In this document: piece by piece, positions 710 through 52,111 of the stretch
Layout: each line of letters begins with the position of its first letter
How positions within the stretch are numbered: position 1 is the stretch's first letter
From: a virus
IMG/VR virus record: IMGVR_UViG_3300042305_002284
Span: 60,361 to 124,360 of that record
Length of the DNA: 64,000 bases
Strand: one strand, 5' to 3'
The notes under the pieces: generated by a model
What the model saw: the letters and a program-made list of their open reading frames with translations, nothing else
Database searches by the model: none
Told to the model about the DNA's origin: nothing
Translations under genes and position numbers: made by a program

Positions 710-3700
710 ATGTCTGATTTCAACACAAGAGGTAAACTTCCGTTTACTATTGTTAGTTCTTCTGTGAATACCGGCTATGCTGCCGCTCTGACTGCAAGTG
801 TTGGTCGCAATATAGACATTGTAAACAAACACAAAGACGAATACGGACAGACAAAAGACTCTCCTGCACAAGGTCCATTTACAAATCAACATGTTGGTGG
901 TAATCAACACCGCCATCAACCAATAAATACTGGAAATGATAATCAGAATAACCGAGGAGAAGCATATATCGTATCTGCCTCTGCGGGAAGTATAAAAGTA
1001 TATGGACCAGATATAAATGGTTTAGATAAACCAAGAAGTCTTCTAACTCGCGATAATACGGCCAAGTCTCCGGTAAATATAAAAAATATACAAACAAGTG
1101 GAAATATTGCTGGTAACTTTGAATACAACTATCAAGTTGTTCAAAGTGTTGGCCGCAGAACTACAAACAATCTCATAAACGATGGTTTTGAAGCAAGTGG
1201 AAGTCTAACAACAAAGTTCGTTTCAGGTTCTCATGAAATATACACTCTTCCAAATATAACAAACAATAGTAAAAGTATATTTGTTGAGCGTTTCAATGCT
1301 CCCGGTGGAAAAGAAGAAAGTTCAAGAGGAGCACTTGATCGTGAAGGTGAAGAATTTTCGCCCAATAACTCTCTTACAACAAGAAACATAAAAGTCAGGC
1401 AGCCATATTATAATCAACTAACACAACATGCTGCACAGTTCAATAGTGGCAGCACAAATAAACTATTGCCAGACACAGGAATAACTGATGCCGTAACGGT
1501 TCATGGTGTAAACAGAAATACAATAGAAAAGGTTTTGACGTTTCCAGAAATAATGTCACAAAAATCAATATTGAGTGGCTCTTTGGCGACGGATTCTAAC
1601 GATAACTTTGGTTTTTCTATTGCAATGAACTCCACGGGTGATCGTGTGGTTGTTACTGCCTATACTGATGAGAAAATTAGTGGAAATTCTAACATTGGTT
1701 TGGCTTATGTGTTCATCAGTGGAACCGGTGGCTGGTCTGAACAACACATATTAAGCGGTTCTTTGGCAACAGGTTCTTCAGATCAGTTTGGCGATTCCGT
1801 AGCAATGAATGCTGATGGCGACAGAATAGTCGTTGGTGCTATTTTTGATGAAAAAAGTGGAAGTGCTAATAGTTCTGGTTTGGCTTATATATTCGTTAGT
1901 GGAACCGGTGGTTGGGCAGAACAACACATATTGAGCGGTTCATTGGCAACAGGTTCAAGCGATGGTTTTGGTAATTCTGTTGCTATCAATGCTACTGGTA
2001 ATTGTGTCGTGGTAGGAGCTAGAAATAATGAAAAAAGTGTCATCACCGCTAGTTCTGGTTTGGCTTATATATTCGTTAGTGGAACCGGTGGTTGGGGAGA
2101 ACAACACATATTGAGCGGTTCATTGGCAACAGGTTCTTTTGATTTTTTTGGCACTTCTGTTGCTATCAATGCTACTGGTAATTGTGTCGTGGTAGGAGCT
2201 AGAAGTGATGAAAAAATCAGTGGAAATAACAATACTGGTTTGGCTTATATCTTTGTCAGTGGAACCGGTGGTTGGGCAGAACAACACATACTGAGCGGCT
2301 CATTTGCTTTAGAGTCTGATGACTTTTTTGGCAATCACATTGCTATTAATGCCGCTGGTGACAGAATAGTGGTTGGTGCTTCTTTTGATGAAAAAAATAG
2401 TGGAAATATCAATACTGGCTTGGCTTATATATATGTCAGTGGGGCAAGTGGCTGGACAGAGCAACAGATATTGAGCGGCTCTCTGTCGACAGAAAGTAGC
2501 AATCAATTTGGCTATTCTGTTGCTATCAATAATAGCGGAGATCGCGTCGTTGTATCAGACACATATGATCTTGCGAGTGGTCAATCGGGTATTGTTTATC
2601 TGTTTGTTAGCGGAGCAAATGGTTGGACTCAAAGACATATATTTAGCGGTTCCTTATCAACAGAGCCAAATGACTTTTTTGGTTCTTCTGTTGTTATGAA
2701 TGCTGCCGGTAGTCGTGTTGTGATAGGCGCAACAAGTGATGAAAATATTATTGGAAATACCGAAACAGGTCTTGCTTATATATTTGATACAACGCAAGAA
2801 GAAGAAATAATCAATCTAACAACCCATGATAACTTCTGGGTTCAACACGCAATACCATCAACTGATCTAAGGTACAAATGGATTGCTGAATCTGTATCAA
2901 GCAGTCAACAACCAATACAATATCAAAGTTACAATCTGCCATATTCAACAGGTAGTTTATATAACTCCAATGGAGCATATACTGACATATCTTTTGAACA
3001 AACAGGACCATTTGGCGATCATTTAGGTATAAGTGGCGCTATTGATAAAGATGAAATGTTTACAAGCAATTATACAAATACAATGTATAGAGATAGAAAA
3101 TATTTATTCTTTACAGCAAGCAATGACTGTTTTATAAATGCTTCAAGTATAGCGCAAGAAATATCTGAAAAAGACTTTTCTGTTTCTTTTTGGGTAAGTT
3201 TTCCAACCAGCGCAAGCAATGGAGAAAAAACACTATTAGTCTATTCTGGTTCTTCAACTCAAAATGAACTTGTAATGAATGTTAGTTCTTCGCTTTGCGG
3301 TCTTACAATATCAGGATCTCAAACAACAACAGAATATCAACTTAGTTCAAGTTTATTAGATAGTTCTTGGCATTTAGTAACAGTAACAAGTGATGTTACA
3401 ACGAGAACGCGAAGAATAACAACTGTTGCTGGCAGCGTTATTGAAACAACATCATTCCCAACTGTTACAAATGTTTATTTAGATGGCGGCTTGGTTAGCA
3501 GAATTTCACAGCCAAATAAAATATTCAACCTTTCTCAAATAACACTTTCAGTTGGTAGAGGTTCTGAACTTCAAGGTGGAAGTTTAGATGAAGTATATTT
3601 CTGGAATAAAGCTCTAACAGAGCAAGAGATAGTAGAAATATATAGAACAACAAAATCTGATTATGACAAACAGCCAAAGAAATATGCCGAACATAAGTTG

Positions 3701-6700
3701 GATAATAGCGATATTCCAACTCCAACACACGGTTATTCGTCCGACATAGAAAAGAATACAACAACACTATTAGATCTTGTTGGAGGAAAAAATCTAACTC
3801 TTGTAAACTTTACTTCATCTGTAAATATTCGCCCACAAAACAGCGGAATAATAAGCTATTCTACATACTTCAATGGCCCATATGAAGGAGCAAGTTGGAA
3901 AAGTATAAGAAACAATGAACATCCAGTAACAAGAAAGCTAACAACAGAAAATACAAATATTGTTTCAGTAAGAATACCAGAAGGAACAAAGAAAGTAACA
4001 AAAGTTGTTAGAGGTATTCCAGTAACTTTCCAACTTCCTGGTTCAAGAAAACAAGGACAACTATTAAATGTAAAAGAAAGTCCTGTTTATATAAATAATA
4101 AACCACTAAAACACAGGTTTATACTAAAAGATTCACAAGATCAAAATGTTGCCATAGAAACAATACACACATATGGAAATAACCTGCAATATTTTGCTAA
4201 CCAACAACTAAATGATACACTTGGTCTTCTAAAAACAGATCGTCAAATATATAATGTTCTTTATGACTACTATTCTGGAGAAACAGAAGAAATAGAAAAT
4301 CCAATACAAAAGCTTGTTGGATATACCTATTCTGAAACTATTTTTCCAAAACCGGGAACAGGACTACTAAAAGAAACTCGTCAAAGAACTGACTATATTA
4401 CAGATCAGCCAGGTTATAGTATTGATGGTTATGACCGTCAACTTGGAACTCAGCGTGTATTTTGGAGAGACAGCCAAGAAGATCGCATGAGAACCCGTAG
4501 AGCATACATTACTTCACTTGGAGATCAAGTTGAGAGTTTGTATGACCTACCGTTTCAAACACCAAGTGTTGCCGCGCTTGAATATGTAAGTGAAAGTAAT
4601 ACGATAGAATATAGTAATACTACGGCTGACCCTTGTTACGAGTCGCTTGTTGATTTTTCGTATAAAAATTGTTCAGAATTGTTTCAAAACTATCAACATC
4701 AAGACACCAGTTATTGCAATGCCGGCGCCGTTCAAGAATATTATAGATTTGTTCGCCCTGTCGTTCAAGTGCCGGAACTTTATTTTTTTGAAGACATCAA
4801 CAATACTAGTCGGGATAATGAAAATGTAATTCTCAACATCAATGCTGTTAGTGCTATATATAGCGACGTGGTTGATAGTGACCCTTCTTCTTTGAGAATA
4901 ATTCCATCATATATCTATCAACACGCTGAATGGATAACTGACTCATCGCTAATGTTATCTGATTTTAGTCAAACTATATACGAAAGAACGACAAACGATC
5001 TTGGTCTAAATAGGGTAACAGAAAAAATATCCGGTAAAAATCCGTGGTATGATTCTTATGAAGATTATTATATTGATATAAAAAACCTATCAAATGATAA
5101 ACTTGTTTCATATTCTAAGATACCAGAATTTATTATATCAAACCATATTTCAAGTCTTGTTGGAGAATATGGTGGAGATGCAACAAAAATAACTATTGAC
5201 GAATATACAGATAATTTACAATTTACATATAAAAAATCTATTGATAGAGAAAATAAAGACATATGTGAAGAAGATACCATAAATATTGTTGTTGATAGCG
5301 TGAAAAAGCTTCTGCCATATAATGGTTTCTATCCACAAGATCGCAGTTTGCAACTTGTAAATTATTTGAAAGAGTCTTGGTTGGATACCAGTGCGATAAG
5401 AGGCGGCATATACCTAAGATACAACGCAAGCACCGGTTTTGCCATAGAAGATGTAACAGAAGGTAAATTAGCATCTTATTATAAAATTGCTTCTTTTTTG
5501 GAGCCTCTTTATTCTCCTGGAATATTTTACAATTTGATCAAGTCTGGCATAGCAGTCGATTGGTCGCTATACACAGGAAGTCTACCAGGAAACTTTTCAG
5601 GTGACGTTCTTACACCGCTACAAGATAAGCCACAATTTAGAGTATCTTTTGAGGATCTTGTGAATTTGAGATTTATAAATTCTTCAAGCATTTCTTCTCA
5701 AAACAGATTTATGAAATATAAAGAAGTTAATTTTCCACAAAATGCTGGTGACTATTCTTATCCTGCAAGTGCTTATTTTGATGGTTATTTCGGAGCGAAT
5801 AGTTCTTCTTTATCAAGTGCTGTTTATACTCTTTCTATAAATAACTTTTTGGCAGAAAGTATAAACTTTTTTCTAAAAGACTCCTCGCTAAATACATTTA
5901 TATCAAAGCCTGATTCTGATTTCGCCACTCTTGATAGCAGTAAGACATATTATATGGATATTGTTTTGAGAAAAAATGACATCGTCATGTGCGAAGCACA
6001 TTCATCTTCGCTTGCTGATAGCTTTGGTAAAATGAGTGGCAGATATTTTGGTCCATCATTTTGGACTGGCTCGGTAGCAGACGAGACAAGAATAGGAAAT
6101 GGCAGACTGCTAAATGAAACACTAAGAGATCCCGGATACTGTTCTTATACACCACCATATTACTATGGCGACTCAGTTGCAAGAATATCTTTCAAACCAG
6201 ATACAACAAGAAAATATAGTCTTGATGAAATATTTGCTGACATGCAAATTGAAAACTTCAACACTTCTTTTACAAACAACTCGGTTTATCCATCTGGCAG
6301 TCTTTATTCGTCATTTGTAATGCCTATTGAATCTTCTGTAACAATAAAAGGCGAAATAGAGCAAAGAGAACAAACAGTTGATATAGCATCAAGAAATGCT
6401 GTTTTGGCCAATGCGGTAAGAAAAAACCTACAAAATCTTGTTGGCACAGCAACAAGTCAAACAGGTATAAAACGATGGGTTATTTCTCCGAAAATGGAGA
6501 CGCCTGTTCTTGATTTCTCAAATCAAGAGTTTATAATATCAACAAATATTTTGACGCAATCATTTGCAGACCAACAAATAAAAGACTTTGAACCAACTCA
6601 CGCTCCTCCAACTGCCAGTGGTTTTGGAAGAGGAATGTGGAGCGGCTATGGTGAAATACCAACAGGTGAAAAAGGTATTTTCCTTGAACTTCGTGAAAGT

Positions 6701-7561
6701 TACCCACGACAACTTGTAAGAGTTCTCAATCCAATAACAAGACAGTTTGTTGAAACAAACACTGGTTCACTATTGCAAGCATGTGGTTTCCAGCAAACCA
6801 ATGACAAACTTTCAAAGAGAATCGGCGAACTTGCTGACACAAGAGAAATATCAGAAGCAATAGTTATAATACCATATCTTGATACAGCGTCAACAGGCAA
6901 AACAATAAGATTTGGTGGCGGGTTTTCAACCCTAACAGTAAATGATACTGTTGAGATAGAGGGGCACAACTTTATAAAAATAAATCAAAATATATTCAAC
7001 TACCAAAAAACAAATGTGTTGGCAAACAAACCAGCAGTTGATCTCACAGACTTCTCTGTTGGCAACACAAAGATACAAGAAACAAGTATCAGCAGAATGT
7101 TGGAGTTGATGAGCAAATATGTCCTACCGCCAAACTTTGACTTCCTACTAAACAACGATGTAACGCCATTTGTTATGTATATTGCTGAGTTTACAAGTAC
7201 GCTTGATAAACAAGATCTTGCCGATATTTGGCAGGGTGTAATGCCGAAAATAGCAACAAGAGCAGAGTGGGAAAAGCAAGTTATATCTCACAAGAATACA
7301 CAGTTTGATTTCTTTCATGGTCAAGGCTTGCCAGAAGATGTCAAGTTCATGATCTTCAAAGCGAAGAAGAGAGCAGAAATAAACTATTACAAGATGGCTG
7401 CTGATTCAAGTGATGACGGATTGTTCCCATCTATTCAAGCAGGCAAACCACCATCACCATATAGTTTCAACTGGCCTTATGACTATTGTTCTCTTGTTGA
7501 AACAGCAAGAGTTGATGTAGAAATAGAATATATAAATAAATCGGGAAGCAATAACACATGA
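710..7561 (+). CDS. Giant virion protein with FG-GAP beta-propeller and LamG-like domain
   Basis: This 2283-residue protein starts at an ATG preceded by TAGGAG. Residues 1-285 are low in hydrophobics and rich in N, S and T. Residues about 287-692 hold seven repeats of about 60 residues, each starting ILSGSLAT and containing an FG..VA.N..G...VVGA..DE core and GLAYIFVSG. These are FG-GAP repeats, which fold as seven-bladed propellers in integrin-type proteins. Residues about 820-985 look like a LamG/concanavalin A-like jelly roll, ending GSLDEVYFWNKALTEQE. The remaining 1300 residues are unassigned beta-rich virion-type sequence. The likely role is a tail or baseplate adhesin that binds host glycans or proteins. 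The stop overlaps the next start (ATGA). Propeller and LamG assignments are from sequence pattern; the adhesin role is inferred. Confidence 0.85.
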   Translation: MSDFNTRGKLPFTIVSSSVNTGYAAALTASVGRNIDIVNKHKDEYGQTKDSPAQGPFTNQHVGGNQHRHQPINTGNDNQNNRGEAYIVSASAGSIKVYGPDINGLDKPRSLLTRDNTAKSPVNIKNIQTSGNIAGNFEYNYQVVQSVGRRTTNNLINDGFEASGSLTTKFVSGSHEIYTLPNITNNSKSIFVERFNAPGGKEESSRGALDREGEEFSPNNSLTTRNIKVRQPYYNQLTQHAAQFNSGSTNKLLPDTGITDAVTVHGVNRNTIEKVLTFPEIMSQKSILSGSLATDSNDNFGFSIAMNSTGDRVVVTAYTDEKISGNSNIGLAYVFISGTGGWSEQHILSGSLATGSSDQFGDSVAMNADGDRIVVGAIFDEKSGSANSSGLAYIFVSGTGGWAEQHILSGSLATGSSDGFGNSVAINATGNCVVVGARNNEKSVITASSGLAYIFVSGTGGWGEQHILSGSLATGSFDFFGTSVAINATGNCVVVGARSDEKISGNNNTGLAYIFVSGTGGWAEQHILSGSFALESDDFFGNHIAINAAGDRIVVGASFDEKNSGNINTGLAYIYVSGASGWTEQQILSGSLSTESSNQFGYSVAINNSGDRVVVSDTYDLASGQSGIVYLFVSGANGWTQRHIFSGSLSTEPNDFFGSSVVMNAAGSRVVIGATSDENIIGNTETGLAYIFDTTQEEEIINLTTHDNFWVQHAIPSTDLRYKWIAESVSSSQQPIQYQSYNLPYSTGSLYNSNGAYTDISFEQTGPFGDHLGISGAIDKDEMFTSNYTNTMYRDRKYLFFTASNDCFINASSIAQEISEKDFSVSFWVSFPTSASNGEKTLLVYSGSSTQNELVMNVSSSLCGLTISGSQTTTEYQLSSSLLDSSWHLVTVTSDVTTRTRRITTVAGSVIETTSFPTVTNVYLDGGLVSRISQPNKIFNLSQITLSVGRGSELQGGSLDEVYFWNKALTEQEIVEIYRTTKSDYDKQPKKYAEHKLDNSDIPTPTHGYSSDIEKNTTTLLDLVGGKNLTLVNFTSSVNIRPQNSGIISYSTYFNGPYEGASWKSIRNNEHPVTRKLTTENTNIVSVRIPEGTKKVTKVVRGIPVTFQLPGSRKQGQLLNVKESPVYINNKPLKHRFILKDSQDQNVAIETIHTYGNNLQYFANQQLNDTLGLLKTDRQIYNVLYDYYSGETEEIENPIQKLVGYTYSETIFPKPGTGLLKETRQRTDYITDQPGYSIDGYDRQLGTQRVFWRDSQEDRMRTRRAYITSLGDQVESLYDLPFQTPSVAALEYVSESNTIEYSNTTADPCYESLVDFSYKNCSELFQNYQHQDTSYCNAGAVQEYYRFVRPVVQVPELYFFEDINNTSRDNENVILNINAVSAIYSDVVDSDPSSLRIIPSYIYQHAEWITDSSLMLSDFSQTIYERTTNDLGLNRVTEKISGKNPWYDSYEDYYIDIKNLSNDKLVSYSKIPEFIISNHISSLVGEYGGDATKITIDEYTDNLQFTYKKSIDRENKDICEEDTINIVVDSVKKLLPYNGFYPQDRSLQLVNYLKESWLDTSAIRGGIYLRYNASTGFAIEDVTEGKLASYYKIASFLEPLYSPGIFYNLIKSGIAVDWSLYTGSLPGNFSGDVLTPLQDKPQFRVSFEDLVNLRFINSSSISSQNRFMKYKEVNFPQNAGDYSYPASAYFDGYFGANSSSLSSAVYTLSINNFLAESINFFLKDSSLNTFISKPDSDFATLDSSKTYYMDIVLRKNDIVMCEAHSSSLADSFGKMSGRYFGPSFWTGSVADETRIGNGRLLNETLRDPGYCSYTPPYYYGDSVARISFKPDTTRKYSLDEIFADMQIENFNTSFTNNSVYPSGSLYSSFVMPIESSVTIKGEIEQREQTVDIASRNAVLANAVRKNLQNLVGTATSQTGIKRWVISPKMETPVLDFSNQEFIISTNILTQSFADQQIKDFEPTHAPPTASGFGRGMWSGYGEIPTGEKGIFLELRESYPRQLVRVLNPITRQFVETNTGSLLQACGFQQTNDKLSKRIGELADTREISEAIVIIPYLDTASTGKTIRFGGGFSTLTVNDTVEIEGHNFIKINQNIFNYQKTNVLANKPAVDLTDFSVGNTKIQETSISRMLELMSKYVLPPNFDFLLNNDVTPFVMYIAEFTSTLDKQDLADIWQGVMPKIATRAEWEKQVISHKNTQFDFFHGQGLPEDVKFMIFKAKKRAEINYYKMAADSSDDGLFPSIQAGKPPSPYSFNWPYDYCSLVETARVDVEIEYINKSGSNNT
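1568..2797 (+). repeat. Seven tandem ~180-bp FG-GAP coding repeats
   Basis: Units of about 180 bp, each opening with ATATTGAGCGGYTC (Ile-Leu-Ser-Gly-Ser), encode seven propeller blades. Blades 2-4 are the most alike at DNA level, sharing runs such as GGTTTGGCTTATATATTCG, which suggests recent duplication or gene conversion. The sixth unit is shorter by about two residues. Related but diverged units recur at 50.18-50.69 kb. Confidence 0.85.
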
Positions 7562-28697: not shown

Positions 28698-31600
28698 ATG
28701 GCTAACAATAGTAGACCAATAAACAGAAGCGATCTTCGCAATATGCCTACCTCAAAAAGAGGCAGAGTAAATCAGGAAAGAAGTCCATATAACCCAGACA
28801 ACAGTCTTTTCAAAAGACTTACAAAACTATTTTCTGGTCCTATTGTCAACCGTCGTCAACAAAACTACAAAGGCGAGCGCCGCCGCCGTTTAGATAAATA
28901 TCGCTTTCAATCAGCACAAGGTCAACAGTTCAAAAAAAGTTCTTACAATCCGTTTGATTATGTTCATTCGCAAAGCATGGCAAATCAAAACCGTGCCGAA
29001 AGATATGTCGACTTTGAGCAAATGGAATATTGTTTGCACGGAGATACAAAGATAGCAGTTCCAGGTGGTTATAAGACGATAAAAGCACTTGCCGAAGAAT
29101 ATGGAACAACACAAGAGTTTATTGTTTATGCTTACGATCACACAAGAAAACAAATAGTTCCAGCATTTGGTAAGCAAGCAAGAAAAACCAGAACAGATCA
29201 TGCCTGGAAAGTAGTTTTCGAAAATGGACAAGAAATAATAGGGACCGCTAATCATCGTCTTATGATGAGAGATGCTACCTATAAAAGAATTGATCAACTC
29301 ATTGTTGGCGACAGCCTAATGCCTTTTTACAGAAAAGATCTAACTCACGGACAAAAAGATGAAGGCGAAGGTTATAGGTGGATCTACACAATGCACCAGG
29401 ATTCAGATCGTAAAAAAGGCTGGATACCAGAACATACACTTATTGCTGAATGGGTTGCTGGTCGTAAAGTATTGCCAGAAGAAGTAGTGCATCATATAAA
29501 CTTTATAAAATATGATAATAAACCAGAAAATTTGATAATAATGAGTTCAAAAGAACATTTACGATATCATCAAAACACTGTCAACGAGCAAAGAAAAAAT
29601 ACTGAATGGTGGGATTCTTTTAGAGCCAAACATAGCGAATGGATGAAGAAAAACAATCCAGCAGAAAGAAAAGATATAACTTTCGAAATAATATTAAGTC
29701 TTTGCGACCAATATGGATTCAATCAAAAAAACATTTGTTCTATGCTGGACACAGATTCAAATACCATAAAAAGAAGACTAAAAACAAAAGGTTTTGAAAG
29801 TTTTGAAATGTTTGCCAGAACTTATCAACCTAACTGGAAAAACGCTGGACAAGACAACAGGAAGAACAAAAATCCTCGTTATGATTCAAACATAACTTTC
29901 AAAAAAGTTTGTGATGCATATGAGCAAGGCATTTCATCAACAGCACTTGCGAGAAAACTAAATACAACACCAGCAAAAATAGTAAATAGAATAAAAGAAA
30001 ATGGCTTTTCTTCTTATAGTAATTTTACAAAAACATATCACAATCACAAAGTATCAAAAATAGAATATTATGGCTTTATTGATCTATACGATCTTACAGT
30101 TGATGGATATAAAAATTTTGCTACTGATAGTGTTTTATCTCACAACACACCAGAACTTGCTTCTGCTTTGGACATATATGCTGATGAAATGACAACAAGT
30201 AACTCGCTTGAAAAAGTTCTCACAATTGATTGTCCTAATGAAGAAATAAAAACTATTTTACATACCCTTTATTATGATGTTTTGAATATTGAGTTCAACC
30301 TTTTTGGTTGGTCAAGAAATATGTGTAAGTTTGGTGATTTCTTTTTATACCTTGATATTGATGAGCGCGATGGTGTTAGAAATGCAATAGGTCTGCCACC
30401 ATATGAAGTTGAGCGTATCGAAGGCGAAGATGAAAAAAATCCAAACTATGTCCAGTTTCAATGGAATAGCGGTGGAATGACTTTTGAAAACTGGCAGTTA
30501 GGACATTTCCGTATTCTTGGCAATGATAAATATGCTCCATATGGAACAAGTGTATTGGAACCAGCCCGTAGAATATATCGCCAATTGACGCTTTTGGAAG
30601 ATGCCATGATGGCTTATCGTATTGTTCGTTCTGCTGAACGTCGTGTATTCTATGTTGATGTAGGAAATGTTGCTCCTAATGATGTAGAGCAGTTCATGCA
30701 AAAAGCAATGACAGCGCTAAAAAGAAACCAAGTTGTTGATGAGAAAACCGGTCGTGTAGATCTTCGTTATAACCCACTTTCAATTGAAGAAGACTACTTT
30801 ATTCCAGTTCGTGGCCAACAATCAACAAAAATAGAAAGTCTTTCTGGCGGTCAATACACTGGCGATATAGAAGATGTAAAATATCTACGAGACAAACTAT
30901 TTTCTGCTATAAAAATACCACAAAGTTATCTTGCTCGTGGCGAAGGCGGCGATGAAGATAAAACAACATTAGCTCAAAAAGATATTCGTTTTGCTAGAAC
31001 CATTCAAAGACTACAAAGATCGATTATAAGTGAACTTGAAAAAATAGGAGTTATACATCTTTTCGTTCTGGGATACAGAAGCGAAGATCTTATCAAGTTC
31101 AAACTAAAACTAAACAACCCAAGTAAAATAGCAGAACTCCAAGAACTTGAATCATGGAAAACTAAGTTTGAAGTAGCAAGTGCTGCAACCGAAGGATATT
31201 TCTCCAAGCGTTGGGTTGCTAAAAAAATATTTGGTCTTTCCGACGAAGAGTTCCTGCGAAATCAGCGTGAAATGTTCTTTGACTTCAAGTTCAAGGCTGC
31301 GGTTGAGAAAGCAGGAACAGAACAAGAAGCTGCTGCTGGTGATGCAGATGCATTTGGTGGAGGTGCTAATATTGGTGCAACAGGTGCTGGTGGTGAAGAC
31401 ATGGGAGCCGGTATAGACCTGAGCACTCTTGGAGCAGAACCAGAAGGAACCGCAACATCAACACCAGAATCACCAACGCCAGAAACACCCGCTGGTGGAG
31501 AAGAAGAAGCGGGTCCATTATTGGCAGCGCCAGGTAAAAGAGACGACAAACTAACAACCACTCCTGCTTCAAGGGGTAAAATGTATATGCCTGTAAAATA

Positions 31601-31910
31601 TCGTGGTGGCGATAGCAGGCCAACAGGAGCAAGAACAAGAAGTTATCAGTCAAAGTTTAGCAAAGAGTTGAGCGGCGGTTCCAGTAGAAACGTATGGGGA
31701 AGTGGAACACAAGATCTGTTTGGTCTTGGCAATGGTATTTACGAACAATATGAAAATAGTTATAGTGAAGAGATGTTGAGTGAAACAAACAAAAAACAAG
31801 ACAACGATATTGTAGAACAAAAAATATTATCTAATAACGAAAACTTGAAACAACTAATAAGTTCTTTGGAGAAGAAAAATGCAACAAACAAAGAAAATGG
31901 CGAAGACTAA
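28698..31910 (+). CDS. Portal protein (T4 gp20-like) interrupted by an intein
   Basis: A 1070-residue precursor. After splicing of residues 112-483 the mature portal would be 698 residues. The exteins join as FEQMEY + TPELASALDIYADEM, the helical segment with a Pro-Glu that is conserved near the start of gp20-type portals. Later portal features include GLPPYEVERI, the wing/clip region YGTSVLEPARR and the stem helix before RGEGGDEDK. The C-terminal 200 residues are Gly/Ala/Pro-rich and disordered-looking. The dodecameric portal is the DNA entry pore of the head and the docking site for terminase and neck. The stop lies inside the next gene. Confidence 0.93.
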   Translation: MANNSRPINRSDLRNMPTSKRGRVNQERSPYNPDNSLFKRLTKLFSGPIVNRRQQNYKGERRRRLDKYRFQSAQGQQFKKSSYNPFDYVHSQSMANQNRAERYVDFEQMEYCLHGDTKIAVPGGYKTIKALAEEYGTTQEFIVYAYDHTRKQIVPAFGKQARKTRTDHAWKVVFENGQEIIGTANHRLMMRDATYKRIDQLIVGDSLMPFYRKDLTHGQKDEGEGYRWIYTMHQDSDRKKGWIPEHTLIAEWVAGRKVLPEEVVHHINFIKYDNKPENLIIMSSKEHLRYHQNTVNEQRKNTEWWDSFRAKHSEWMKKNNPAERKDITFEIILSLCDQYGFNQKNICSMLDTDSNTIKRRLKTKGFESFEMFARTYQPNWKNAGQDNRKNKNPRYDSNITFKKVCDAYEQGISSTALARKLNTTPAKIVNRIKENGFSSYSNFTKTYHNHKVSKIEYYGFIDLYDLTVDGYKNFATDSVLSHNTPELASALDIYADEMTTSNSLEKVLTIDCPNEEIKTILHTLYYDVLNIEFNLFGWSRNMCKFGDFFLYLDIDERDGVRNAIGLPPYEVERIEGEDEKNPNYVQFQWNSGGMTFENWQLGHFRILGNDKYAPYGTSVLEPARRIYRQLTLLEDAMMAYRIVRSAERRVFYVDVGNVAPNDVEQFMQKAMTALKRNQVVDEKTGRVDLRYNPLSIEEDYFIPVRGQQSTKIESLSGGQYTGDIEDVKYLRDKLFSAIKIPQSYLARGEGGDEDKTTLAQKDIRFARTIQRLQRSIISELEKIGVIHLFVLGYRSEDLIKFKLKLNNPSKIAELQELESWKTKFEVASAATEGYFSKRWVAKKIFGLSDEEFLRNQREMFFDFKFKAAVEKAGTEQEAAAGDADAFGGGANIGATGAGGEDMGAGIDLSTLGAEPEGTATSTPESPTPETPAGGEEEAGPLLAAPGKRDDKLTTTPASRGKMYMPVKYRGGDSRPTGARTRSYQSKFSKELSGGSSRNVWGSGTQDLFGLGNGIYEQYENSYSEEMLSETNKKQDNDIVEQKILSNNENLKQLISSLEKKNATNKENGED
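29031..30146 (+). other. Intein with HNH homing endonuclease inside the portal gene
   Basis: The 372-residue insert begins with Cys (CLHGDTKIAVPGG), has block B GTANHRLM and ends LSHN before Thr, the expected nucleophile, His-Asn and +1 Thr of a splicing-competent class 1 intein. The middle carries an HNH endonuclease segment (VVHHINFIKYDNKPENLIIM then SKEHLRYH) and repeated helix-turn-helix-like segments (SNTIKRRLKTKGF and TPAKIVNRIKENGF) that could bind the target DNA. All splicing residues are present, so it should be active. It is probably mobile between portal genes. Confidence 0.92.
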
Positions 31911-48301: not shown

Positions 48302-49987
48302 ATGTCAGTTATCAAAAAATTAACAGAAGGCGTCGTAAAGCGTGACCTTGAAAAAGAAGGTGGTGCTCTACTAAGCAAATGGTCAGAAACAGGTCTACTC
48401 GAAGGTATAGGCGATGATCGTGCTAAATCTTCAATGGCTCGTCTATTAGAAAATCAGGCTCAGGAACTACTCCGCGAAGCCAACACAATGTCAGGAGGTG
48501 ATGTAGAAGGTTTTGCCGCTGTTGCGTTCCCAATAGTGCGCCGTGTATTCGGTTCACTTATTGCGAATGAACTTGTTAGCGTTCAACCAATGAGTCTACC
48601 AAGTGGTCTAATCTTCTTCCTTGACTTCCAGTTTGAGCGTACACGCGGCGCCAATCTACAAGATACCTCAATATTTGGTGGTGGTGTTGTTGGTTCACAA
48701 CTCACTGGCGGTGTCAGTCTTTCAGGTGTAAATGCTGAAAACTCACTCCGTGCTCTAAACCAAGGTTATTCACTACCAACTGGCAGTGGTAACGTTACAC
48801 TAACACTTGTCACCTCGGGAACCTTTGGTGCTGGTGGTACTCTTGACAAACTTTGTAGGTTTGATGCTGACTTTGTCAGTGGTTCAACCAAAGTCGCAAT
48901 ATTTACTGTTTCAGGGAGCAGTCTAACTGCACTTGATAAGAGCAGTCTTATTGCGATCAATGCTACACTACCAAGCGGCTCACTTGTTCGTCGCCTAACC
49001 GACAAAACAGATTCAACCGGTCTTGTCGACACTAGCGGTGAAACCTATACCCACATTCGTCTTGTAGTTGCCAGCGAAACACTTGCTCCAACTCTACTTG
49101 ACGACAATGCTGGTTCTCGTGCGCTAACTTGGCCAATTGCTGATGTTATTGGTAACGTTGGTCTTGACGCACAAGGTGCTGTTGTTGCTTCGCAGGTAAC
49201 CTTTGAAGGCGAAGCAAACATTCCAGAAATTGATATCAAAGTTGACAGTGTTGCTGTAACTGCCAAGACCCGCAAGCTCAAGGCAAAATGGACACCAGAA
49301 CTTGGTCAAGACCTCAATGCATACCACAATCTTGATGCAGAAGTTGAACTCACTTCAATTCTGTCAGAACAGATTGGTCTTGAAATTGATCAAGAAATGC
49401 TTGGTGAACTTGTCAAAGGTGCAACCGCTGCAACACTATATTGGTCACGCCGCCCAGGTAAATTCGTAGATCGTACAACCGGTCTTGCGATTGCCAGTGG
49501 TGTAAGTGATCCAAATGGTGCTGACTTCACCGGTAATGTCAGTATGTGGTACGAAACCCTTGTTGAAACAATCAACGATGTAAGTGCTGCAATTCACCGT
49601 AAAACACTTCGCGGCGGCGCAAACTTTGTTGTTTGTGGTCCAGAAGTTGCCAACATCCTTGAATTCACCAGTGGCTTCCGTGCCAATGTTGTTCATGATG
49701 ATGCCAAGGGCACAATCGGTGCTGTCAAAGCAGGTTCACTCAGCAAGAAATGGGATGTCTTTGTTGACCCATACTTCCCACGCAACCTGATCCTTGTTGG
49801 TCGTAAAGGCAATAGTTTCCTCGAAAGTGGATTCGTATATGCCCCATATGTACCACTACAAGTTACACCAACCATCTTTGGAACCGAAGATTTCGTTCCA
49901 AGAAAAGGTGTGATGACACGCTACGCCAAGAAGATGGTTAGACCAGACATGTATGGCCTCGTAGTCGTACAAGACCTACTTGGTTGA
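48302..49987 (+). CDS. Major capsid protein (T4 gp23-like)
   Basis: A 561-residue protein (T4 gp23 is 521) with CAGGAG upstream. The N-terminal 60 residues are a helical delta domain with LLE sites and LLREANTM. A likely protease cut after Glu59 (L-R-E|A) is close to the T4 position (after Glu65). The HK97-type fold continues with VAFPIVRRVFGSLIANELVS and VQPMSLPSGLIFFLDF, and near the C-terminus FVPRKGVMTRYAKKMVRPDM. It forms the capsid hexamers. Arg is mostly CGT/CGC and Gly/Val GGT/GTT or GTC, unlike AGA-rich neighbours, consistent with high expression. Two terminators follow. Confidence 0.95.
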   Translation: MSVIKKLTEGVVKRDLEKEGGALLSKWSETGLLEGIGDDRAKSSMARLLENQAQELLREANTMSGGDVEGFAAVAFPIVRRVFGSLIANELVSVQPMSLPSGLIFFLDFQFERTRGANLQDTSIFGGGVVGSQLTGGVSLSGVNAENSLRALNQGYSLPTGSGNVTLTLVTSGTFGAGGTLDKLCRFDADFVSGSTKVAIFTVSGSSLTALDKSSLIAINATLPSGSLVRRLTDKTDSTGLVDTSGETYTHIRLVVASETLAPTLLDDNAGSRALTWPIADVIGNVGLDAQGAVVASQVTFEGEANIPEIDIKVDSVAVTAKTRKLKAKWTPELGQDLNAYHNLDAEVELTSILSEQIGLEIDQEMLGELVKGATAATLYWSRRPGKFVDRTTGLAIASGVSDPNGADFTGNVSMWYETLVETINDVSAAIHRKTLRGGANFVVCGPEVANILEFTSGFRANVVHDDAKGTIGAVKAGSLSKKWDVFVDPYFPRNLILVGRKGNSFLESGFVYAPYVPLQVTPTIFGTEDFVPRKGVMTRYAKKMVRPDMYGLVVVQDLLG

Positions 49988-49996
49988 TAAATAAAC

Positions 49997-50016
49997 TGGC
50001 TTCACAAAGCCATTTT
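49997..50016 (+). terminator. Intrinsic terminator 1 after the capsid gene
   Basis: TGGCTT and AAGCCA form a 6-bp stem around a CACA loop, followed by TTTT. It begins ten bases after the capsid stop codon. Confidence 0.75.
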
Positions 50017-50023
50017 AGAGATG

Positions 50024-50052
50024 ATGCCTGCGCAAGCGGGCATTTTCTTTTT
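50024..50052 (+). terminator. Intrinsic terminator 2 after the capsid gene
   Basis: ATGCCTGC and GCGGGCAT pair over 8 bp (one G-U) around a GCAA tetraloop, followed by TTTCTTTTT. Strong hairpin eight bases after the first. The tandem pair would sharply end the capsid transcript. Confidence 0.88.
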
Positions 50053-50119
50053 GTTGCGTTATAACGCCATTACTAACTACTTACACTGTGCTAGACTGAT
50101 CTCAACAGGGAGACATAGT

Positions 50120-50693
50120 GTGCCAAAACTAAAAACAATAAATGATTTTATAACCGATGCAATAAGAAAACACGGGAACAAATACTTTCTGGAAGTTTGG
50201 CATCGGCAACAAGTGATAGATTTGCAACATCTGTTGCAAGCAATGCAAACGGAAATAAAATAGTTGTTGGAGCAATCAATGATGAAAAGACCGGTACGAA
50301 CGGAGAAGGATTGGCATATGTATTTTCTAGTGGTAGTAGTGGGTGGAGCGAGGAACACATATTGAGCGGCTCGCTTGCCACAACTCTCCTTGATAACTTT
50401 GGATATTCTGTGAATATAAACAGTACGGGTGAATATATCGTAGTGGGTGCTCCTGATGACGAATCTCCTGCAAATGCGGCCAGTTCTGGTCTTGCATATG
50501 TGTTTGTCAGTGATTCTGGTGGTTGGTCAGAAAACAGATTTTATCTGGAACGTTCGCTACTGGTTCTAACGAGCGTTTTGGTATGTCTGTTATCATAAAT
50601 TCAAGCGGCAATCTTATAGCAGTTTCTGCGCCTGGTGATGAGTCGGGGTCACTTTCTGATTCTGGCTATACTTACATATTTGAAGCGCGATAA
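50120..50693 (+). pseudogene. Homing-endonuclease start fused to frameshifted FG-GAP fragment
   Basis: A GTG at 50120 (AGGGAG upstream) opens KLKTINDFITDAIRKHGNKY, which resembles the first residues of phage HNH-type endonucleases with a DUF723-like N-terminus (motif HG-N/D-KYDYS). The similarity stops at 50185. From about 50176 another frame encodes three FG-GAP blades like those of the giant protein at 710: EQILSGSLASATSDRF, ILSGSLATTLLDNFGYS, and after a one-base loss near 50530 (GAAAACAG where EQ is expected) ILSGTFATGSNERFGMS, ending TYIFEAR at 50693. No single frame reads through, so this is likely decayed recombinant DNA. It fills most of the 807-base gap between capsid and neck genes. 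Confidence 0.7.
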
Positions 50694-50759
50694 AAGATAA
50701 TCACTTTTTTTGTTACCATATCGTTAATGGTTGCTTATTTTCTTTTATTATTAGTTACA

Positions 50760-50769
50760 ACTATTTATA
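50760..50769 (+). promoter_or_regulatory. ACTATTTATA motif, candidate promoter for neck genes
   Basis: ACTATTTATA, identical to the copy at 14904, 25 bases before the neck gene. A restart of transcription is needed here because two terminators close the capsid unit and the intervening DNA is a remnant. Confidence 0.45.
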
Positions 50770-50794
50770 TTAGTCCAATAGGAGACTAATATAA

Positions 50795-52111
50795 ATGTCT
50801 GTTCCCGTTCTAACGCCAAAACAACAAACAAGTGCTATAATACTACCAGCAACTGGAACTCTTATAAATGTTGTTCCTAATTTGCCAATTGGTGTTTATG
50901 CTGATAGTAACGATTTTAGACTTGGAGCAGTAGATCAAGTTGCCTATACGTATAAAATGATAGGTGGAGATGTTCTCGATATAGAAATAACAGAAGGACA
51001 AGTATATGCTGCCTACGAAGATGCAACGCTTACTTATTCTTATCTTGTTAATCTACATCAAGCAAAAAATGCCATTGGAACACTTCTTGGTTCTCCAACT
51101 GGTACCTTTGATAGTGATGGTGAAATAAAAAGCGGTAGCGCCCTTTTTGATCTTGTAAATCAGAACGGTTCTTTGAGTCTTGCTTATCCGATGTATGATA
51201 TTACATCAGTAAGAGATATTGCTGATGCATTTTCACACGAAGCTGGTATTGGCGGAAGAGTGGACATCTATTCTGCTTCTTTTGACGCTATCCCGGATAC
51301 ACAAGACTATGATTTACAAATGATAGTTTCAAGTTCGGCAAGCGATCCAAATTCTCCGCTGTTTGGAAAAGTAGCACCAGGAAGCAGAATAACAGTAAAA
51401 AAAGTATTTTATAAATCTGCACGTGCTATGTGGAGGTTTTATGGATATTATGGTGGTCTAAATGCAGTAGGAAACCTTTCTACATATGGTCAATATGCTG
51501 ACGACAGCACGTTTGAGATCATACCAGCATGGCATAATAAACTTCAAGCAATGGCATATGAGGATAATATCTATACTCGTATCTCTCACTATTCTTATGA
51601 ATTAAAAAATAATAAACTTCGTCTTTTTCCGATTCCCGATTCAACCGACATAAGAACATTTTGGTTTGAGTTCAGTGTTGGTAGTGGAAATGGTTCAAAT
51701 ATTGGTATAGGTAATCTATCTGGTTCTTCTTATGTCGCGGCAAACAACAAAGATCCCAGAATAGGTGGAGTAAATAATATAAATACTTTACCTTTTTCAA
51801 ACATACCGTTTGAAAACATAAATGCAATAGGCAAACACTGGATTCGTCGCTATGCTCTTGCTGTGGCAAAAGGTATGCTTGCAGAGATTCGTAGTAAGTT
51901 CCAGACGATACCAATACCTGGTGAAAGTGTAACTCTAAATGGCGCTGATCTGCGTGCGCAAAGTAAAGAAGAAAAAGACGCTCTCAAAGAAGAGTTACTA
52001 AAAATACTTGAGGATACAGACTACGCAATACTGGCTGAAAAGCGAACTGCTATGTCTGATAATGCAAATAAAACATTGGCAGCAATACCAAATATTATAT
52101 TTGTTGGATAG
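50795..52111 (+). CDS. Neck protein, T4 gp13-like
   Basis: A 438-residue protein with AGGAGAC upstream. The C-terminal quarter, HWIRRYALAVAKGMLAEIRS then KFQTIPIPGESVTLNGADLR and a terminal helical region (EEKDALKEELLKIL), matches the W-I-x-x-Y-x-x-A ... P-G-x-V-x-L-N-G pattern of gp13-type neck proteins. Earlier SRISHYSYELKNNKLRLFPI-like sequence (ISHYSYELKNNKLRLFPIPD) also fits. T4 gp13 is 309 residues, so the N-terminal part is extended. It would seal the DNA-filled head with the gp14-like protein and permit tail joining. Family call from remembered pattern. Confidence 0.75.
   Translation: MSVPVLTPKQQTSAIILPATGTLINVVPNLPIGVYADSNDFRLGAVDQVAYTYKMIGGDVLDIEITEGQVYAAYEDATLTYSYLVNLHQAKNAIGTLLGSPTGTFDSDGEIKSGSALFDLVNQNGSLSLAYPMYDITSVRDIADAFSHEAGIGGRVDIYSASFDAIPDTQDYDLQMIVSSSASDPNSPLFGKVAPGSRITVKKVFYKSARAMWRFYGYYGGLNAVGNLSTYGQYADDSTFEIIPAWHNKLQAMAYEDNIYTRISHYSYELKNNKLRLFPIPDSTDIRTFWFEFSVGSGNGSNIGIGNLSGSSYVAANNKDPRIGGVNNINTLPFSNIPFENINAIGKHWIRRYALAVAKGMLAEIRSKFQTIPIPGESVTLNGADLRAQSKEEKDALKEELLKILEDTDYAILAEKRTAMSDNANKTLAAIPNIIFVG

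Follow-up and report, generated by a model that had tools for sequence, protein, structure and literature searches.

A probable deletion scar joining a homing endonuclease start to an FG-GAP propeller fragment in the post-capsid cargo slot of an uncultured T4-like phage

In phage T4, the free-standing homing endonuclease gene segD lies between genes 23 and 24, and for T4 introns the illegitimate repair of double-strand breaks is documented to leave short-homology junctions (PMC2988022). Capsid genes occur in 31% of the gene neighbourhoods analysed for T5orf172 endonucleases, the majority of which carry DUF723-like fingers (PMC10448857). The locus described here resembles segD in that endonuclease sequence occupies the spacer directly behind a gp23 capsid gene, but segD lies on the opposite strand as a complete GIY-YIG gene whereas the present sequence consists of 22 DUF723-type codons on the capsid strand. 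These codons match in register the stretch T.(E/N)(D/E)FI..A...HG(D/N)KY of T5orf172 endonucleases whose zinc fingers are of the DUF723/CapR/DUF4379 kind (PMC10448857; JEP1, swi2 and Vibrio phage 1.087.A), although the module breaks off behind the Y and neither further modules nor a catalytic domain is left. The cut is followed out of frame by FG-GAP blades, and the whole is most likely a non-functional scar made by a deletion, at probable short homology, within one cargo slot.

The window is the whole 64,000-nucleotide stretch that was analysed, comprising bases 60361-124360 of a virus record that is 124,360 bases long and comes from an uncultured T4-like phage. The scar sits in the 807 bases that separate the capsid gene from a conserved 438-codon gene at 50795; the preliminary description had placed it in the spacer after the capsid gene, and the gp23 gene does adjoin it. 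The features of the locus, in window positions, are as follows.

48302..49987, + strand: major capsid protein gene of the T4 gp23 type (PF07068 Gp23, E 2.1e-70), left border of the slot
49988..50052, + strand: resident spacer just 3' of the capsid gene, with 94% identity to the equivalent site in L009 across 65 bases
50053..50119, + strand: probable leader that belonged to the lost endonuclease gene (AGGGAGA, 50107-50113)
50120..50187, + strand: first 22 codons (and the junction) of a DUF723/DUF4379-type homing endonuclease gene, profile score 35.2 bits
50176..50534, + strand: two FG-GAP propeller blades in the frame of 50197 (PF14312, E 4.7e-15, in two stretches)
50177..50187, + strand: junction zone, fitting both the endonuclease N-K-Y and a propeller blade boundary
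50529..50537, + strand: second frame change, where blade similarity moves from frame 1 to frame 0
50535..50693, + strand: last propeller blade with its natural stop (PF14312, E 1.3e-4)
50738..50794, + strand: resident spacer and right border of the slot, 81-88% identical to L009, L088, L015 and L016
50795..52111, + strand: conserved structural gene that comes next (438 aa); close relatives have it 3' of the capsid gene too, at 82-94% identity

Both ends of the slot are kept in the window, as the first 65 bases match L009 and the last 56 match several relatives at the identities listed. In the middle, the blades alone match any relative (blastn, about 160 loci); the leader at 50053-50119 had no match in the same search and contains no sigma-70 promoter above chance. 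A terminator-like hairpin (50023-50044) is found inside the left resident spacer, and the 438-aa gene belongs to no Pfam family. Elsewhere in the window, an intein that carries an HNH endonuclease domain interrupts the portal gene gp20 (28698-31910), another of its T4-type structural genes.

The GTG at 50120, with AGGGAGA 6 bases upstream, starts a 47-codon frame whose translation begins VPKLKTINDFITDAIRKHGNKYFLEV. Its first 22 codons had been likened to the N-terminus of a DUF723-type endonuclease, and the likeness is borne out by the residues KTINDFITDAIRKHGNKY, which reach 35.2 bits with a profile built from 55 aligned endonuclease modules, a value slightly inflated because the profile members were picked by anchor residues, but not by 17 bits. 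The 55 members scored leave-one-out have a median of 42 bits and a minimum of 20. The score was reached by none of 1,000,000 shuffles (maximum 28.4) and none of 20,000,000 random 18-mers (maximum 18.3); the best other 18-mer in the six frames of the window and the best of 1.45 million 18-mers from the six-frame translations of relatives scored 12.8 and 18.0 bits respectively. The pattern DFIxxAxxKHG[D/N/S/G]KY occurs in 17 stretches in viral and genome contigs, all seventeen being starts of DUF723/DUF4379-type modules, several of which open a protein in the form MPKIITTEDFI or MAKRLTTEDFI. These stretches run on into the conserved module whereas the window sequence does not, its similarity to the endonucleases stopping at Y22 (50187). 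A tblastn search with the first 26 residues against 50,697 phage records gave eight records, none significant alone, and every alignment ends at residue 22 or 23. Six of these are mobile-endonuclease-like genes (swi2, PJN025, Escherichia phages JEP1 and Mangalyan, the latter putative, and 1.087.A), two of them in the single phage vB_EcoS_swi2 and the one in Salmonella phage PJN025 adjoining a minor capsid gene, and the remaining two are the helicase of one Shewanella phage.

The N-terminal half of the module, F..xA...HG.KY, is present in the 22-codon piece, and the zinc-binding half (K.....C..H...........H......GC..C) is absent, the translation diverging after residue 22. No catalytic domain (T5orf172/GIY-YIG or HNH) was found in the scar, and neither a match to the phrog_681 endonuclease nor an intact DUF723 endonuclease was found in the whole record. 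The piece alone matches nothing in Pfam or PHROGs because it is too short for their filters. A strict motif retrieved no close endonuclease parent from the viral or genome contigs, and none of the 17 modules found with the looser motif lies in the capsid slot of the relatives compared. Given the profile score and the independent 17 of 17 motif matches, the 22 codons are, as judged by sequence, the genuine start of a DUF723/DUF4379-type mobile endonuclease; the piece is an endonuclease fragment and not a member of the family.

The switch of similarity to FG-GAP blades in another frame, also claimed in the preliminary description, was recovered at 50177-50187. The blade frame (P0002) begins E-Q-I-L-S-G from 50176 and contains blades 1-2, with an FG-GAP_2 score of 55.9 bits (E 4.7e-15) against a cut-off of 23. 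A later one-base loss had been said to split the blades, and a frame change is indeed found at 50529-50537, beyond which the last blade continues in a third frame (P0003) at 22.5 bits, just below the same cut-off; its length and end position are those of the terminal blades of L006 and L094. The scar shares with the slot propellers of L006, L094 and L007 (FG-GAP_2) its blade sequence, boundary bases, terminal blade, stop and genomic place. In contrast to these seven-blade propellers in one open frame, it has three blades over two frames, lacks the start beginning MFFY and about four blades, and is broken in frame twice. The blades are also, as had been noted, related to but distinct from those at 1.6-2.8 kb of the window, with 47-64% protein identity and about 65% DNA identity to these blades of a 2283-codon protein. 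They are similarly close to the blades of relatives, so that a single donor is not indicated. Single-protein searches with the scar blades and with the L007 propeller found no relatives beyond the queries themselves. The 2283-codon structural protein (window 710-7561) combines a seven-blade FG-GAP propeller with a lectin-like domain.

At the join, the 16 bases AACAAATACTTTCTGG (50177-50192) recur without a change at a blade boundary of L007's intact propeller, and on the endonuclease side the N-K-Y codons of the family can read AACAAATAT (L208), with 8 of 9 bases in common. The overlap of about ten bases that was originally proposed is present, although the 16-base identity to L007 makes it better written AACAAATAC than GAACAAATAC. 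From the two sequences, 8-9 shared bases are plausible, and the overlap is bounded at about 8-11 bases and no more closely because the endonuclease parent was not found, the propeller side being exact in L007. The junction pattern was absent from 2.9 million viral contigs and is known from this one record, and a search of the literature found nothing on endonuclease remnants with microhomology. Illegitimate recombination at microhomology, the origin first suggested, stands as regards the two families, the out-of-frame join, the later shift and the place; microhomology is consistent with the junction but unproven, as is its length.

The slot between the two border genes is variable among the 117 distinct relatives that span both genes: it measures at most 160 bp in 86 of them and more than 160 bp in the other 31, where it reaches 5,665 bases. 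Among the closest relatives (capsid protein at least 75% identical), ten out of seventeen carry cargo. Where an endonuclease is present it always comes first, followed on one strand by FG-GAP, lectin and Ig-like genes. The search for an intact endonuclease and an intact propeller at this site was successful in L005 and L006, where the order is a GIY-YIG endonuclease (PF01541, E 3.1e-15), a lectin gene and an intact seven-blade propeller (E 1.1e-57). In such relatives, with an intact propeller behind the endonuclease, the enzyme is GIY-YIG and not DUF723; this GIY-YIG enzyme with NUMOD3 comes first in L006 and, by sequence, also in L005 and L010. In L016, the first place is taken by a phrog_3339/559 protein of HNH type that includes a DUF723-like module.

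The other slot genes mostly start with MFFYSE, MFFYRE or similar, and the bodies behind these starts are lectin (Laminin_G_3), seven-blade FG-GAP, ASPM-SPD-2-Hydin Ig-like or glycine-rich. Starts of the form MFFY(S/R/G/N/K)E with exchangeable bodies were seen in L005, L006, L007, L009, L010, L013 and L014, and also in the slots of L016, L026, L029, L089 and L094, with up to five such genes in succession and terminator-like hairpins between them. Among 18 records searched, 20 of the 24 MFFY-type starts lie in the post-capsid slot; outside it, the propeller corresponding to that of the 2283-codon protein lies, in L233 (G004), within a 580-codon gene near a further MFFYSE start. The common start is perhaps a virion-binding tag. 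A 30-codon MFFYKE frame in L008 (9669-10729) runs to an early stop, is followed by an unrelated gene (about 210 codons) and is perhaps another broken slot gene. The slot of L028 (5437-5665) holds an apparent tRNA-Asn gene, judged by eye, and no protein gene. In the distant relatives L142, L040, L060, L138, L127, L128 and L102, the slot contains genes of 140-270 codons, most of which begin MGSKR, MGSKF or MSKSG-like; the three that were tested belong to no Pfam family, and these genes are possibly head decoration proteins.

A parallel scar occurs in L011 (9675-9920), where the slot measures 246 bases, the first 116 of which match the start of the GIY-YIG cassette of L006 and L010 (91%). The first 14 GIY-YIG codons are joined in frame to the last codons KSWK, with about 515 bases missing. 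An endonuclease start and a deletion are therefore found in the same slot as in the window, although the L011 deletion is in frame, lies inside one gene and involves no propeller. The stop is followed by a copy of the 3' end of the capsid gene (ACATGGTCGGCTGATATTAACCGG), as in L012 and L090, which are without cargo. This vestige suggests that an endonuclease cassette was inserted in the last codons of the capsid gene, rebuilt them and left the old end downstream. The L011 scar shows that the post-capsid slot both gains and loses endonucleases.

From the observed identity of both pieces, their frames, the variability of the slot, the gene order in relatives, the junction bases in L007 and the L011 scar, we infer a single deletion event, the use of microhomology and a loss of function. 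In the ancestral slot, a free-standing homing endonuclease whose zinc-finger modules were of the DUF723 type would have stood on the left and a seven-blade FG-GAP propeller further to the right, both on the + strand. The deletion would run from the first module of the endonuclease to a blade boundary, probably between copies of a shared AACAAATAC or similar sequence, and would have removed the body of the endonuclease, anything between the genes, and the MFFY start and about four blades of the propeller. The one-base loss ahead of the last blade could have occurred before or after it. A deletion between neighbours is the simplest account because relatives have both kinds of gene together in the slot, in this same order and orientation. 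Against a single deletion, no DUF723 parent was found in the record or in the viral and genome contigs, and two separate events, a truncation of the endonuclease followed by the joining, therefore remain conceivable. The earlier observation is thus confirmed in its pieces, frames and place, and its interpretation, a mobile endonuclease meeting a propeller gene, is right in essence and in both parents, being refined here to a deletion between neighbouring genes inside one cargo slot.

We consider it improbable that the join arose through exchange with another phage, by illegitimate repair after endonuclease cutting. Homing repair with little homology yields microhomology junctions in T4 (PMC2988022), phage endonuclease genes occur at exchange borders (PMC10448857), and in L011 the remnant followed by the vestige of the capsid 3' end is a trace of endonuclease insertion; one deletion, however, accounts for the shared strand, the shared order and the kept slot ends. 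An artefact of assembly or sequencing is much less probable still. The junction is present in one metagenomic record only, but window frames of 500-2283 codons are intact, which indicates that indel errors are not common, the 9-base overlap is too short to fool an assembler, and L011 has its parallel scar. Marginally less credible again is a single propeller gene with an unusual start of its own and two one-base losses, its endonuclease likeness being due to chance. The two frame changes are equal in size and both occur near AGAAAACA, and intact propellers too have a short helix-like stretch ahead of blade 1; this reading nevertheless meets a score of 35.2 bits against a chance maximum of 18.3 in 20 million and seventeen motif matches out of seventeen in endonuclease modules. 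The intact slot propellers begin MFFYSE or MFFYRE, unlike the 22 codons, and these starts together with the profile test are grounds to reject the 22 codons as the propeller's own start. A live gene read by programmed frameshifting can be practically dismissed despite its start codon with a ribosome-binding site upstream and its retained natural stop, as two shifts would be required, the second without the usual slippery heptamer, for a product of a partial zinc finger and three of seven blades that is found in no relative.

The deletion scar is most likely without function, since the blades have no start codon and binding site and the frame that has them ends at 47 codons; the blades are no longer translated because the join is out of frame. 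The scar is ordinary decay in a hotspot of a known kind. It would be more than mere decay if the slot were a locus of shuffling, its homing endonucleases moving and recombining display genes that share MFFY(S/R)E starts and have exchangeable lectin, propeller, Ig-like and glycine-rich bodies, with the scar as a by-product, a reading that we hold to be possible though rather unlikely. In the scar, the deletion junction of a selfish endonuclease with a putative surface-protein gene can still be read, which shows how such cargo is lost, and the contents of the slot can be compared over more than a hundred relatives. The slot itself, with an endonuclease first and tagged display genes behind it, is more interesting than the scar and is testable.
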